64,000 nt of DNA, taken from positions 651,237 through 715,236 of the forward strand of contig JAHCID010000001.1 in assembly GCA_026129405.1 (NCBI GenBank), written 5' to 3'. The position numbers were made by a program, and so were the translations under genes. Positions 22,691 to 28,617 of the stretch are shown piece by piece. The stretch's first letter is position 1. Each line of letters begins with the position of its first letter. This DNA comes from a bacterium. Its GTDB lineage: Bacteria; Desulfobacterota; Binatia; DP-6. Under the pieces are notes generated by a model, which ran no database searches, had not been told where the DNA came from, and saw only the letters and a program-made list of their open reading frames with translations.

Positions 22691-23593
22691 GTGCCCGCAA
22701 GCGCGTTCGGCGCCGCCGGTGTCGCCCTCACGCTGGCGATGTTCCTGCCCTACCTGCGCCTCGTCTGGCGCGGGACGGCGAAGCCGCACGTCTTCTCGTG
22801 GGTGATCTGGGCGCTCGGCACCTTCGTCGTGTTCTTCGCCCAGCTCGCGGGTGGCGCCGGCGTCGGGGCGTGGCCGATCGGGGTGTCGGCGGCGATCACG
22901 ACCGCCGTCGCGCTGCTCGCCTGGGTGCGGCACGCCGACACGGGCGCCACCCGCACCGACTGGGCCTTCTTCCTGGCGGCGGTGTCCGCGCTGCCGTGCT
23001 GGCTGGTGACGGCCGATCCGCTCTCGGCCGTCGTCATCCTGACCCTCGTCGACCTCCTCGGGTTCGGTCCGACGGTGCGCCGCGGCTGGGCACGCCCGCA
23101 CGAGGAGAGCGCGGGGTTCTTCGCGCTGGCCGCGCTGCGCAATCTGCTCGTCGTCCTGGCGCTCGAGCGCGTCGACGCGACGACCGTCCTCTTCCCCGCG
23201 GCGGTGGGGCTCGGCTGCGCGCTCCTGGCGACGCTGCTCGCGGTGCGCCGCCGCGCGCTCGCGACGGGAGCGGGCGGATCGCCGATGCCGTTGCGAGACG
23301 CCGACTTCGACCGCGCCTTCTGCGAGTGGCAGGAGTTCGGCCCGCGGCGCGGGGTGCCGATCGTCGAGCGCTGGCGCGCCATGTTCCCCCACGCGACGCC
23401 CGCCGTCCTCGAGGACGCGGAGCGCCGCTGCCGCGAGATCGAGGCCGCCGCCTGGCAGCTCTCCGAAGCGGTGCAGGCGGGGCGGATGGGGGAGGCGGAA
23501 GGCCAGCGCCGGCTCGCCGCGCAGTACCCGCGGCTGACGGCGGCGCGCGTCGGCCGCATCTGGATCCAGGCCATGTACTTCGTGGCCAAATAG
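22691..23593 (+). CDS. PQ-loop-type membrane protein with soluble C-terminal domain
   Basis: 300 residues from a GTG with AAGGAC upstream. The first 195 residues hold five or six membrane helices; PYLRLVWRGTAKPHVFSWVIW has the Pro-rich turn of the PQ-loop/SWEET fold. Residues 200-300 are a soluble helical domain with FDRAFCEWQEF and VERWRAMFPHATPAV of no recognised family. A transport role is likely by fold; the substrate is unknown and the tail could be a second function. Confidence 0.65.
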   Translation: MPASAFGAAGVALTLAMFLPYLRLVWRGTAKPHVFSWVIWALGTFVVFFAQLAGGAGVGAWPIGVSAAITTAVALLAWVRHADTGATRTDWAFFLAAVSALPCWLVTADPLSAVVILTLVDLLGFGPTVRRGWARPHEESAGFFALAALRNLLVVLALERVDATTVLFPAAVGLGCALLATLLAVRRRALATGAGGSPMPLRDADFDRAFCEWQEFGPRRGVPIVERWRAMFPHATPAVLEDAERRCREIEAAAWQLSEAVQAGRMGEAEGQRRLAAQYPRLTAARVGRIWIQAMYFVAK

Positions 23594-23644
23594 ACCCCGC
23601 TCGGGTCGACGCCGAGCCCGTGGGTGTGGCACATGGCGGCCGGT

Positions 23645-24229
23645 ATGCCGCCCTCCGAAGAAGCGACGTCCGACGACGATCGCCGCGAAGCCGAAGCCGT
23701 CGCGGGCATGCGGGCCCTGGTCGGCCAGGTCATCGGCACGCCCTCGGTGGCGCCCGACCCGGTGAACCAGCCGATGATCCGCCACTGGGCCACGGCGATG
23801 GAGGACCACGATCCCGTCTACGTCGACCCGGCCTTCGCCGCGACGACGCGCTTCGGCGGCATCGTCGCGCCGCCGATGATGCTCCAGACCTGGACCATGG
23901 CCACGCCGAAGATCACCGGCATCGCCGCCCGCGGCGGCGCGCCGGTCGAGTTCGGCAAGAACCCGCTGACGCCGCTCGACGAGGCCGGCTTCATCGCCAC
24001 GCTGGCGACGAACTCGGAGTTCGAGATCGTCCGCTACCTCCGCCTCGGCGAGACGCTCACCTCGACCATGGTCATCGAGTCGATCTCGGAGCGGAAGAGC
24101 ACGCGGCTCGGACCGGGCTACTTCGTCACCTGGGTGACGACCTTCCGCGACGCCGCCGGCGAGGTCGTCGGCCGGCAGATGTTCCGCATCCTCAAGTTCA
24201 AGCCCGATCTGGAGAAGCTGCTCGGATGA
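23645..24229 (+). CDS. MaoC-N-type hotdog subunit (ChsH2 N-terminal-domain-like)
   Basis: 194 residues from ATG 23645 (GTG 23624 and ATG 23633 are alternatives). MIRHWATAMEDHDPVYVD and FGGIVAPPMML mark a FAS1/MaoC-N-like dehydratase hotdog domain. The catalytic His of the HxD step is replaced by Tyr (DPVYVD), so on its own it may be inactive. In Mycobacterium ChsH2 this domain is fused to a DUF35 domain. Here the DUF35 is a separate gene that starts in the stop codon (ATGA) of this one. Acts with the partner hotdog at 24627. Confidence 0.8.
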   Translation: MPPSEEATSDDDRREAEAVAGMRALVGQVIGTPSVAPDPVNQPMIRHWATAMEDHDPVYVDPAFAATTRFGGIVAPPMMLQTWTMATPKITGIAARGGAPVEFGKNPLTPLDEAGFIATLATNSEFEIVRYLRLGETLTSTMVIESISERKSTRLGPGYFVTWVTTFRDAAGEVVGRQMFRILKFKPDLEKLLG

Positions 24230-24630
24230 GCTATCGGGTCCCGCCGGCGACGACGCCGGACACGAAGTGGTTCTGGGACGCGCTCGCGGACGGCAAGCTG
24301 CTGATCCAGCGTTGCACCGGCTGCGCGCGCCTGCGCCATCCGCCGCGTCCGATGTGCCCGCACTGCAACGCCCTCGCCTGGGACGCGGTCGAGGCCAGCG
24401 GGCGCGGCACGGTCTACAGCTTCGTGCTGCCGCGCCACCCGCCGTGGCCGTGGTTCGAGGGCACGTACGTGGTCGCGCTCATCGAGCTCGACGAAGGCAC
24501 GCGCATCGTCTCGAACCTCACCGACGTCGATCCCGCCGACGTCACCATCGGCATGCCGGTCGAGGCGTACGTCGCGCACTTCGACGGCGTCTCGCTGCCG
24601 CAGTTCCGCCCCCTCGGGAGCACCGCGTGA
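24226..24630 (+). CDS. DUF35 zinc-ribbon OB-fold protein (ChsH2 C-terminal-domain-like)
   Basis: 134 residues. A zinc ribbon CTGCARLRHPPRPMCPHC (C-X2-C-X10-C-X2-C) is followed by an OB fold with GTVYSFVLPRHPPWP. DUF35 proteins bind acyl-CoA or thiolase partners; in the Mtb igr system the DUF35 part of ChsH2 binds the aldolase Ltp2. Overlap by four bases with both neighbours shows tight coupling. Confidence 0.85.
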   Translation: MSYRVPPATTPDTKWFWDALADGKLLIQRCTGCARLRHPPRPMCPHCNALAWDAVEASGRGTVYSFVLPRHPPWPWFEGTYVVALIELDEGTRIVSNLTDVDPADVTIGMPVEAYVAHFDGVSLPQFRPLGSTA

Positions 24631-25049
24631 AGACCCTCGACTGGAACGCCGTCCAGGTCGGCGACGCCGTCACCCCCATGACGATCGACGTCACCGCCAC
24701 CGTGGTCGTCGCCGGCGCGATCGCGACGCGCGACTTCATGCCCGTGCACCACGACCGCGACTACGCGGCGACGCAGGGCTCGCCCAACATCTTCATGAAC
24801 ATCATGACCGACAACGGCTACGCGAGCCGCTTCCTCACCGACTGGGCCGGCCCCGAGACGATGGTGCGGAAGATCGCCATCCGCCTCGGCGTGCCGGCCT
24901 ATGCGGGCTCCACGCTGGCGTTCACCGGCGAGGTCACGGGGAAGTCGCAGGAGGGTACGGAGGGCATCGTCGAGATCGCGTTCCGCGCCGCCACCGCCGA
25001 GGGCGACCACATGGCCGGCACGGCCGTGATCGGGCTGCCGCTGCGATGA
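24627..25049 (+). CDS. MaoC-type enoyl-CoA hydratase subunit (ChsH1-like)
   Basis: 140 residues from GTG 24627, overlapping the preceding stop. The hydratase motif DFMPVHHDRDYA (Asp, then His five residues on) is intact, and GSPNIFMNIMTDNGY supplies the overhanging helix. Paired with the 23645 product it would form a heteromeric enoyl-CoA hydratase. In the Mtb model this hydrates a steroid side-chain enoyl-CoA. Confidence 0.82.
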   Translation: MKTLDWNAVQVGDAVTPMTIDVTATVVVAGAIATRDFMPVHHDRDYAATQGSPNIFMNIMTDNGYASRFLTDWAGPETMVRKIAIRLGVPAYAGSTLAFTGEVTGKSQEGTEGIVEIAFRAATAEGDHMAGTAVIGLPLR

Positions 25050-26212
25050 CGCGCACGCTGCGGGGCCGCGCCGCCATCGCCGGCATCGGCGCGACGGAGT
25101 TCTCGAAGGCGTCGGGGCGCAGCGAGCTGCAGCTCGCCTGCGAGGCGATCAAAGCGGCGCTGGACGACGCCGGGCTCGTGCCGCGCGAGGTCGACGGCCT
25201 CGTCACCTTCACCATGGATACGAGCGAGGAGTGCGAGGTCGCGCGCAGCCTCGGCATCCCGAAGCTGTCGCTGTTCTCGCGCATCCCGTACGGCGGCGGC
25301 GGCGCGTGCGCCGTCGTGATGCAGGCGGCGATGGCGGTGGCCACCGGCGCCGCCGACGTCGTCGTGTGCTGGCGGGCGATGAACGAGCGCTCCGGCATGC
25401 GCTTCGGCGGTCCCGGCATGGAGAGCGCGAAGCTGCCGTCGTTCCTCGACATGTACGGCCCCTACGGCCTGCTCTCGCCGGCCAGCTGGGTGGCGATCGC
25501 CGCGCGCCGCTACATGCACGAGTACGGCGTCACCAACGCCGACTTCGGTCGCATCGCGGTCGTCGACCGCAAGCACGCCGCCAACAATCCCGCCGCCTGG
25601 TTCCACCAGCGCCCGATCACGCTCGAGGATCACCAGGCGTCGCGCTGGATCGTCGAGCCCGTGCTGCGCCTCCTCGACTGCTGCCAGGAGAGCGACGGCG
25701 GCGTCGCCCTCGTCGTCACCACCCCCGAGCGTGCGCGCGATCTCCGCCGGCGTCCCGCGACCATCCTCGCCGCCGCACAGGGCGCGTCGGACGACGGCGA
25801 GATGATGACGAGCTACTATCGCCCCGAGATCACCGGCCTCCCCGAGATGGGCGTCGTCGCCGCGAAGCTCTGGGCCGACTCCGGCCTGCGCCCGGCGGAT
25901 ATCCAGACGGCCTTCCTCTACGACCACTTCACCCCGTTCGTGCTCGTGCAGCTCGAGGAGCTCGGCTTCTGCAAGCGCGGCGAGGCGAAGGACTTCGCGA
26001 CCGTCGAGAACCTCTCGATCGGCGGCACGCTGCCCATCAACACCAGCGGCGGCCTCCTCGGCGAGGCCTACATCCACGGCATGAACGGCATCGCCGAGGC
26101 GGTGCGGCAGATCCGTGGGACGTCGGTGAACCAGGTGCCGGACGTGGAGCACGTGCTGGTGACGGCCGGGACCGGCTGCCCGACCAGCGGGCTCATTCTG
26201 GGGACGCCGTAG
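25046..26212 (+). CDS. Lipid-transfer-protein thiolase (Ltp2-like aldolase)
   Basis: 388 residues, close to Mtb Ltp2 (386). The thiolase fold is clear (IAGIGATEFSKASGRSE, GGGGACAVVMQAAMAVATG, GTLPINTSGGLLGEAYIHG), but the segment around the usual active-site Cys reads GGGG, so thiolytic chemistry is unlikely. Ltp2 cleaves 17-hydroxy-steroid side-chain CoA esters by retro-aldol. By neighbourhood this gene would act next to the hydratase. The compound degraded here may be a sterol, hopanoid or other branched acyl chain. Confidence 0.85.
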   Translation: MTRTLRGRAAIAGIGATEFSKASGRSELQLACEAIKAALDDAGLVPREVDGLVTFTMDTSEECEVARSLGIPKLSLFSRIPYGGGGACAVVMQAAMAVATGAADVVVCWRAMNERSGMRFGGPGMESAKLPSFLDMYGPYGLLSPASWVAIAARRYMHEYGVTNADFGRIAVVDRKHAANNPAAWFHQRPITLEDHQASRWIVEPVLRLLDCCQESDGGVALVVTTPERARDLRRRPATILAAAQGASDDGEMMTSYYRPEITGLPEMGVVAAKLWADSGLRPADIQTAFLYDHFTPFVLVQLEELGFCKRGEAKDFATVENLSIGGTLPINTSGGLLGEAYIHGMNGIAEAVRQIRGTSVNQVPDVEHVLVTAGTGCPTSGLILGTP

Positions 26213-26390
26213 GGTGATCCGATCCGTCGCCGCTCCGCATGGACGCCGGCGGCGCACGGCTGCCGCGCCAGTCCGGCGACACGTTCGACGCCGCGGCGAC
26301 GAAGCCGCTCGGGCCCGGCCCTACGGCTCGATGCCTCGCCCGTGTCGAATGCCGGCCCGCTGGATCGTCGTCCCGTCGAAGGAGGACACC

Positions 26391-26837
26391 ATGCGATTCG
26401 TCATCACCGCCGGGCGCGGCGAGGGCCCGAGCGATTCCGAGCGGCCGCTCGACGAGGCCATGCTCGTCGCCTACATGCGCTTCAACGAGGAGATGCACCG
26501 GGCCGGCATCCTGGTCGCGTCCGAGGGGCTCAACCCGGCGGCGTCGGGGGCGCGGGTCGTGGCCTCGGGCGGGACGCGCCGCGTCCTCGACGGGCCGTTC
26601 GCCGAGTCGAAGGAGCTGGTCGGCGGGTTCTACGTCGTCGACGTCGACTCGCTCGACGAGGCGATCGCGTGGGCGCTGCGCTGCCCGGTGGGGATGGGCA
26701 CGGACGACGTGCTCGACGTGCGGCCGCTCACGGGCGCGTCGGACATCCCGCCCGAGGTGATGCGCATCATCCGGGAGGCGGCGCCGACGTGGAGCGCGTC
26801 GATGGAAGCGGAGCGCGGCCGGGGGGCAGGCGGATGA
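26391..26837 (+). CDS. YciI family protein
   Basis: 148 residues, with GAAGGAGGAC before ATG 26391. DGPFAESKELVGGFYVVDV followed by SLDEAIAWALRCP is the YCII/DGPF motif. The fold is a small dimeric alpha-beta barrel; function is mostly unknown, some act as lactonases or accompany sigma factors. A 178-base non-coding gap precedes it and holds no clear feature. Overlaps the GST start. Confidence 0.85.
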   Translation: MRFVITAGRGEGPSDSERPLDEAMLVAYMRFNEEMHRAGILVASEGLNPAASGARVVASGGTRRVLDGPFAESKELVGGFYVVDVDSLDEAIAWALRCPVGMGTDDVLDVRPLTGASDIPPEVMRIIREAAPTWSASMEAERGRGAGG

Positions 26838-27495: not shown

Positions 27496-28617
27496 CTACC
27501 GCCGGGCGAGGTCGGCGAACGGCACGACCTCTGCCTGCGGCGTCTCGACCGGCCCCTCGGCCAGCATGAAGCGCCAGAAGACGATGCCGTAGGTGCGCCC
27601 CTCGGTGTCGAGCCAGTTCGGGTGGCCGGGGTCGCGGTGCGCCAGCACGATGCGGAAGCTGCCGTCGGGCTCGAGCGCCGTCTGGGCACGGTTCCGCGAC
27701 GCGGGGCGGTTCGCGTAGTCGAGCGTCTGGAGGAAGCGGTTCCACAAGGAGACGTTCGCGCAGCGGCACGTCGGCCAGCGGCCGGTCATCACCAGGGCGT
27801 CGTCGGGACCGATGACGAAGGGCGCCATCGAATAGGTGACGTCGAAGGCGGCGAGGCCGAAGTTGCCGGGCGGCACCGGCGGCGGGAACTGGTTGGGGAC
27901 GAGCGACACGAACGGCGGCGGCGTCGAGTTGGCCATCGGCGGCTGGCCCAGGGTGCGGGCGCGCACGAACGTCGCCACGCGGCGGATGGCGCGCGCGATC
28001 GCGGCGTCGTCGGGCGGCGGCGGCGTGGGGCCGGGCTCGAGGCGGACGATCTCCATAGCCGCGTTGCGCGCGGGGTCGGCCGCCGCCGGTGTCGGGTTCT
28101 CGTAGTAGTGGCGCGTCGTGATGCGCGTCGCGCCTGGCTCGAGGCCGAGCCAGCCCCGCGCCTGGGGCGGGCCGCCCAGGCGGACCTCGAAGCGACCCTC
28201 GGCGTCGACGTCGAAGCCCGACTCGTTGATCACGCCGGCGGTGCGGCTCGCCATGCCGCCGTCCTCGGCGTCGCACTCGACGGTGATCGACACGTAGACC
28301 GCGCCGTCCATGCGGCCGCGCACGACGTAGACGTGCTCGGGGCTGACGGCGGCGTCGTGGTAGATCGCGTCGGCGTTGTCGCCGGTGAACTTCCGCGTCG
28401 GCGAGACGATGCGCTGGAAGCGCGGGCGCGCCGGGTCGGACTCGAAGAAGGTGGCGATGCCGCCTTCGAGCAGGTGCAGGATCGCGCGGTGGGCGCCGGT
28501 GACGTCCGCCTCGCCCATGAGGTTCCACTCGGCGCTGGCCCAGCGGCGGTCGACCTCGGCGAGCGTGTCCAGCAGCGCGCGGAAGGCGACGCGGGTCTCG
28601 GTCTGGATGTCGCTCAT
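27496..28617 (-). CDS. DUF1214 domain protein
   Basis: 373 residues. The start MSDIQTETRVAFRALLDTLAEVDRRW lies in the stop codon of the upstream sulfotransferase (TGATG). The C-terminal half (about residues 230-360) has the DUF1214 pattern: FDVTYSMAPFVIGPDDALVMTG, CRCANVSLWNRFLQTLDY and RIVLAHRDPGHPNWLDTEG. No signal peptide. Function unknown. Such proteins are often beside sulfotransferases or steroid-acting enzymes in actinobacteria and uncultured delta-like bacteria. Confidence 0.8.
   Translation of the reverse strand: MSDIQTETRVAFRALLDTLAEVDRRWASAEWNLMGEADVTGAHRAILHLLEGGIATFFESDPARPRFQRIVSPTRKFTGDNADAIYHDAAVSPEHVYVVRGRMDGAVYVSITVECDAEDGGMASRTAGVINESGFDVDAEGRFEVRLGGPPQARGWLGLEPGATRITTRHYYENPTPAAADPARNAAMEIVRLEPGPTPPPPDDAAIARAIRRVATFVRARTLGQPPMANSTPPPFVSLVPNQFPPPVPPGNFGLAAFDVTYSMAPFVIGPDDALVMTGRWPTCRCANVSLWNRFLQTLDYANRPASRNRAQTALEPDGSFRIVLAHRDPGHPNWLDTEGRTYGIVFWRFMLAEGPVETPQAEVVPFADLARR

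Follow-up and report, generated by a model that had tools for sequence, protein, structure and literature searches.

An igr-like four-gene module in a Binatia genome with the two domains of ChsH2 encoded by separate genes

The ChsH1-ChsH2-Ltp2 enzyme set of Mycobacterium tuberculosis clips the final piece of the cholesterol side chain. In this set the MaoC and DUF35 domains of ChsH2 form a single chain, and the available text of PMC11321319 holds that this fusion ties the hydratase to the aldolase because hydration alone is unfavourable. A relative of this set, by sequence, is found in a genome of the class Binatia (assembly GCA_026129405.1, contig JAHCID010000001.1), where MaoC and DUF35 are two proteins. 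This locus raises the question of how such an untethered module arose, what it does, and on which substrate. We analyzed it within a stretch of 64,000 nucleotides, referred to below as the window.

The module spans positions 23645-26212 of the window, on the + strand. Gene A (23645..24229) encodes a ChsH2-MaoC-like hotdog protein, gene B (24226..24630) a free-standing DUF35 protein corresponding to the zinc ribbon and OB fold of the ChsH2 C-terminus, gene C (24627..25049, with a GTG start) a ChsH1-like hotdog protein, and gene D (25046..26212) an Ltp2-like aldolase of the thiolase superfamily. The A/B, B/C and C/D junctions are 4-nt overlaps (ATGA, GTGA and ATGA, respectively). The first-pass annotation had read this stretch as successively overlapping genes for MaoC-N, DUF35, MaoC and a lipid-transfer thiolase, with ChsH2 split at an ATGA and the proteins assigned to the ChsH1/ChsH2/Ltp2 families. 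This observation was correct: the open reading frames, the Pfam and PDB matches and the conserved residues described below all agree with it, and A and B lie in different frames joined at the ATGA instead of forming the single chain of ChsH2. Two alternative start candidates exist for A (ATG 23633 or GTG 23624). The overlaps themselves are unremarkable, since 7 of the 43 same-strand neighbour pairs in the window share them, three of these seven being in the module. A chance split or a frameshift artefact was ruled out, as the same split recurs in other genomes, at 38 of 80 loci. The four proteins had no match among the defence genes of PADLOC, and a promoter and terminator scan of 23300-26600 returned none of either, being uninformative at the window's GC-content of 73%. 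Downstream of the module, on the - strand, are a sulfotransferase-family gene (PF13469; 28617-29870) and an uncharacterised gene with a sub-threshold DUF1214 match (27496-28617), which overlap by 1 nt.

Each of the four proteins has its closest solved relative in the igr-type complex. Protein A matches Pfam PF13452 (FAS1_DH_region, 1.6e-17) and its nearest PDB sequence is the ChsH2 MaoC domain of 4w78/4wnb (E 1.7e-26; the molecule names of 4w78 are swapped relative to 4wnb). A structural model built from 14 sequences, with a mean pLDDT of 75 and a weak central part, retrieved the ChsH2 chains of 4w78 and 4wnb as best Foldseek hits (TM-scores by query of 0.67-0.69). The replacement of the catalytic His by Tyr in the first hotdog, which had been pointed out at the outset, is confirmed as Tyr59 within DHDPVYVD. 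This position is Tyr in 43 of the 45 split rows of the alignment and a gap in the other two; A is thus predicted to be a non-catalytic, substrate-binding half of a hydratase. The substitution is no novelty, since ChsH2 itself is already known to have Tyr there (PMC11321319, available text). Protein B matches both ChsH2 C-terminal families (PF01796 and PF12172) and is nearest to the DUF35 domain of ChsH2 in 6ok1_B (E 1.1e-37). Its zinc site (Cys30/33/44/47) is kept entirely in 45/45 split rows; among the fused rows, by comparison, Cys33 is kept in only 29 of 61 and missing in 32.

Protein C scores 26 bits against PF01575 (MaoC), 1 bit below the cut-off, and is nearest to ChsH1 of 4w78/4wnb (E 1.8e-30). 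The hydratase dyad Asp36/His41 is present in all 44 split rows, and C is predicted to be the catalytic half of the hydratase. Protein D matches the thiolase families of Pfam as well as the NCBIfam lipid-transfer protein PRK07855 (661.9 bits for a cut-off of 469), and its nearest PDB sequence is Ltp2 (6ok1_A; E 3.4e-171). The absence of Ltp2-type residues had been set beforehand as grounds for rejecting the assignment, and these residues were found: Tyr292 and His294 (in YDHF) and Tyr342 align with positions 294, 296 and 344 of TcLtp2 (6ok1_A) and are conserved in 45/45 split rows. The roles of the two tyrosines of TcLtp2, Tyr294 as the YDHF base and Tyr344 as the second Tyr, follow the available text of PMC12329534. 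The 45 split rows include one class relative (locus L222, 7031-9163, genome G683) whose DUF35 and Ltp2 genes are whole but whose A has an internal gap and whose C is truncated. The hydratase half may therefore be dispensable or decaying in that genome, or the assembly may be at fault.

We then asked how widespread the split form is. In a scan of named genomes, the best 80 loci of at least 589 relatives were kept: A and B are on separate open reading frames in 38 (L009-L046) and fused at the match in 39. The other three are a locus cut by a contig end (L064), one with a lone DUF35 (L067), and one (L065) where a lone DUF35 adjoins a 69% Ltp2 copy and a second copy on the same contig (L065b) is fused. 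Among these best 80, the 38 split loci belong to Mycobacteriaceae (33), to two other actinobacterial MAGs and to three MAGs titled Delta-, Alpha- and Proteobacteria. The split is therefore not unique to the window and is common to many mycobacteria and uncultured bacteria. It also coexists with the fused form: one copy of each type occurs in M. vulneris (G151), and M. colombiense GF76 (G154) and M. asiaticum DSM 44297 (G155) each combine two split copies with a single fused one. Nine of the 98 genomes of the window's class, its own included, encode a D relative with at least 75% identity; the eight examined are all split and the ninth (G691) is a partial match. A sample of the phylum yielded a D match at E 1e-140 in 1 of 148 genomes, which is the window's own. 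In the phylum of G156, 21 of 246 genomes had a match at E 1e-105, and one (G504) was split among the loci examined. Transfer from another phylum, considered on the basis of this single phylum genome and of the three MAG titles, is weakened: the matches in these MAGs (G148, G149 and G152; loci L009, L010 and L014) lie at the same contig coordinates as in G729, G705 and G740, which are listed in the window's class, so that their titles are probably wrong. The open-licence literature that we searched describes neither a naturally split ChsH2 nor a paralogous igr operon. Two further loci present unusual gene structures. In Pseudomaricurvus (L178, 1464-2936; G158:C11:40366-46829), a single 490-aa frame adjoining an Ltp2-like gene combines MaoC-N, DUF35 and a ChsH1-like hotdog, which is the opposite extreme to the split form, and in L148 (298-2070 and 1461-1616; G448) the ChsH1-like domain is partly in the Ltp2 frame and partly in another, as if frameshifted.

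The genes surrounding the module differ between lineages. Among the 38 split loci of the best 80 (of at least 589), 25 have about 1.1 kb of additional sequence between B and C, labelled as an acyl-CoA dehydrogenase gene, and 13 are compact like the window. We compared one split mycobacterial locus (L012) with the PDB: the closest entries to its two dehydrogenases are 4x28 and 6wy8, which we take to be steroid enzymes, and its P450 is nearest to a reconstructed CYP125 ancestor, then to CYP124 and CYP142. Two class relatives also have such genes nearby: G668 has a P450 gene ~280 bp upstream of A, and G699 a pair of acyl-CoA dehydrogenases ~5.5 kb downstream of D. In the window, neither paired dehydrogenases nor a P450 flank the module, so the linked ChsE1/ChsE2 dehydrogenases and CYP125 of the igr operon have no counterpart beside it. 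The listed matches to the acyl-CoA dehydrogenase query ACADa (45) and to the P450 family (22) in the window's genome are all elsewhere. They include several unlinked dehydrogenase pairs that are 52-53% like the mycobacterial ACADa, and a pair on contig C4 whose ACADa is 60% identical to that of G699. This pair, similar to that found close to the G699 split module, and the second of two squalene-hopene cyclase places of this genome lie ~17 kb apart (C4:304641-305591 and C4:322086-323255). The genome also has 20 matches to the Ltp2 query which, together with the 45 dehydrogenase matches, characterize it as rich in unusual lipid breakdown.

The first-pass annotation had left it between an ancestral form and a fission, to be settled by phylogenies of each domain. 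These phylogenies recovered the split rows as one clade in each gene tree (SH-aLRT of 99 for A, 86 for B, 97 for C and 98-100 for D) but left the direction of change undecided. This clade, which takes in mycobacteria that additionally have the fused igr type and eight genomes of the window's class (its own among them), is either the sister of the fused igr type or nested in it. The group closest to the split clade in the B+D tree is made up of DUF35-thiolase pairs without A (SH-aLRT 98), and the outgroups also have a free DUF35; since both thus have an unfused B, a history in which the split lineage was never fused requires two changes by our count and fission requires three. AU tests did not reject a single fused clade for D with four further rows (p = 0.715), for B (p = 0.278) or for B+D with two further rows (p = 0.503). 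In the D test, L065 and L178 were both placed on the fused side. L065 was labelled fused in the trees and in the residue and spacing counts although its 69% Ltp2 copy adjoins a lone DUF35, L178 was labelled BD in the trees and residue counts although it is a triple fusion of A, B and C, and the B row is the same for L065 and L065b. The later re-examination of gene structures covered 10 loci in one round and four in another. Overall, these results tilt slightly toward a primitive split state.

A secondary fission, in which a fused ChsH2 would have been split once in the ancestor of the split clade by a stop and start within the linker, has somewhat less than an even chance in our estimation. 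The junction itself is in line with such an event: the 13 fused loci that we printed have 6-27 residues between the end of the A alignment and the start of the B alignment, and in 38/38 split loci the A stop and B start are located at this linker position, where the two genes overlap by 4 or 1 nt or are 0-1 nt apart. (A short PDLEALLK-like tail closes the A proteins of the window and its class relatives but is missing from the mycobacterial split A proteins.) Fission would also agree with the paraphyly of the fused rows in the free D trees and with the gene order ACADa-AB-ACADb-C-D, which several fused loci (L047, L065b, L075, L086, L148, L158, L160 and others) share with the split mycobacterial loci. 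However, the unfused B of the sister pairs and outgroups, the count of changes and the compatibility of the AU tests with one fused clade all stand against it.

We infer from homology, conserved residues, gene order and clade membership how the chains would pair, what chemistry they would perform, and that the substrate would be a branched, probably polycyclic isoprenoid acyl-CoA. At a probability of about 0.75, we consider the module to be an unfused two-enzyme hydratase-aldolase whose product is propionyl-CoA, taken from the branched side chain of a bulky, probably polycyclic isoprenoid. Against this reading weigh the missing dehydrogenase pair and P450 beside the module and the gapped A and truncated C of L222. 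By transfer from the known chemistry of ChsH1-ChsH2-Ltp2, A and C would pair as a heteromeric enoyl-CoA hydratase in which A accommodates the bulky part of the substrate and C contributes the Asp and His for the addition of water, converting a 2-methyl-enoyl-CoA to the alcohol (a beta-hydroxy, alpha-methyl acyl-CoA). B and D would then pair as the aldolase, with D cleaving the C-C bond by retro-aldol reaction into propionyl-CoA and a ketone on the remaining molecule. The acyl-CoA dehydrogenase step would be supplied from elsewhere in the genome. Hydratase and aldolase are held together by the A-B link in the fused relatives, whereas here the two are expected as separate chains from tightly spaced and probably coupled genes; any contact between hydratase and aldolase must therefore be non-covalent. 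According to the available text of PMC12502768, the MaoC and DUF35 domains of Comamonas testosteroni retained hydratase and aldolase activity when expressed separately, and by analogy the unfused form is expected to be functional.

The substrate had been proposed to be a steroid, a hopanoid or a branched lipid. The family assignment was right, but the steroid part of this proposal is not supported by this genome. We searched 16 genomes for KshA (PF19298) and obtained matches in eight: 3-7 each in four mycobacteria (G151, G154, G155 and G504), in Pseudomaricurvus (G158) and in a member of the Myxococcota (G157), together with the Acidimicrobiia genome G150 and one weaker match in G683. There were none in the window's genome, in six class carriers of the split form (G671, G699, G668, G148, G149 and G152) or in G153. 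HsaD exceeded its cut-off of 400 bits in 4 of the 16 genomes, all mycobacteria, and its best score in the window's genome was 100.8 bits; beyond actinobacteria the test says little, as G158 and G157 fail it as well. The KshA and HsaD pair indicative of 9,10-seco steroid degraders was accordingly not found in the window's genome, so the host is unlikely to break down steroid rings in the known way, and for lack of these ring markers a steroid substrate is doubtful. We therefore regard canonical removal of a steroid C17 side chain within steroid catabolism, acting as igr does on the 17-ene-20-carboxyl-CoA of a cholesterol-like or bile-acid-like steroid, as a minority prospect, even though the closest solved relatives of A-D are all steroid enzymes, the mycobacterial relative L012 adjoins a CYP125-like P450 and dehydrogenases nearest to 4x28 and 6wy8, and the genome could draw on its many ACADa and P450 matches.

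Removal of an isopropyl-derived side chain from a hopanoid or another cyclic terpenoid, instead of from a steroid, is also unlikely when taken on its own. The chemistry should suit any ring bearing CH(CH3)COOH. Among the 16 genomes, the C-terminal family of squalene-hopene cyclase was found at two places in the window's genome and at one each in G671, G699 and G148, all of which are devoid of KshA. G683 has a 33-bit fragment, and the other 11 genomes had none. The cyclase does not strictly co-occur with the split module, however, as the carriers G668, G149 and G152 are among those without it; we saw no gene link between cyclase and module, and the titles and abstract openings of the three papers found describe no hopanoid catabolic enzyme. 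The host thus probably makes hopanoids, to go by its gene content, but neither hopanoid synthesis nor the missing steroid-ring route names the substrate.

Comparison with known systems places the module nearest to the igr type. All four domains are homologous to those of M. tuberculosis igr and Thermomonospora curvata (4w78, 4wnb and 6ok1), the order MaoC-DUF35-MaoC-Ltp2 is the same, and the catalytic residues of ChsH1 and Ltp2 and the Tyr of ChsH2 are shared; the window module differs by its separate MaoC and DUF35 proteins, by the four zinc Cys of its DUF35, and by having no linked CYP125 or ChsE1/ChsE2. ORF40-44 of C. testosteroni TA441 (ChsH2, ChsE1, ChsH1, Ltp2 and ChsE2) form the same enzyme set, but the available text of PMC12502768 presents the native ChsH2 as fused, the working separation being made by the experimenters. 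The bile-acid hydratase-aldolase Shy-Sal of proteobacteria likewise joins a MaoC hydratase to a thiolase-like aldolase via DUF35. As far as the available texts of PMC11321319 and PMC12329534 go, Shy is without an inert partner and has a Cys3His zinc site in its DUF35, and Sal has YDCY with Cys, whereas the window module has YDHF, the second Tyr and Cys4. Finally, Atf1-ChsH4 of the HBC operon of Mycolicibacterium neoaurum also places a free-standing DUF35 beside a thiolase-like aldolase for sterol side-chain work, but the operon acts at C22-23 and the available text of PMC10398937 gives no MaoC among its four named genes.

More speculatively, and with rather long odds, the split modules may constitute a second, uncharacterised igr-like pathway in which ChsH2 was never fused. 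One or two copies of it would accompany canonical igr in non-tuberculous mycobacteria. In a class of uncultured bacteria, several of them hopanoid-making and without steroid-ring enzymes, it would occur by itself and take the side chain off a polycyclic isoprenoid other than a steroid; the M. tuberculosis complex would then derive from this primitive, untethered source. In the mycobacteria that we examined, a split operon accompanies the fused igr type and could lead to genes being misassigned in work on sterols. The interest of the module is that it shows the outcome when hydratase and aldolase are untethered, and a natural clade without the A-B link allows a test of whether tethering matters. 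In uncultured bacteria without steroid-ring markers, the split module points to side-chain chemistry.
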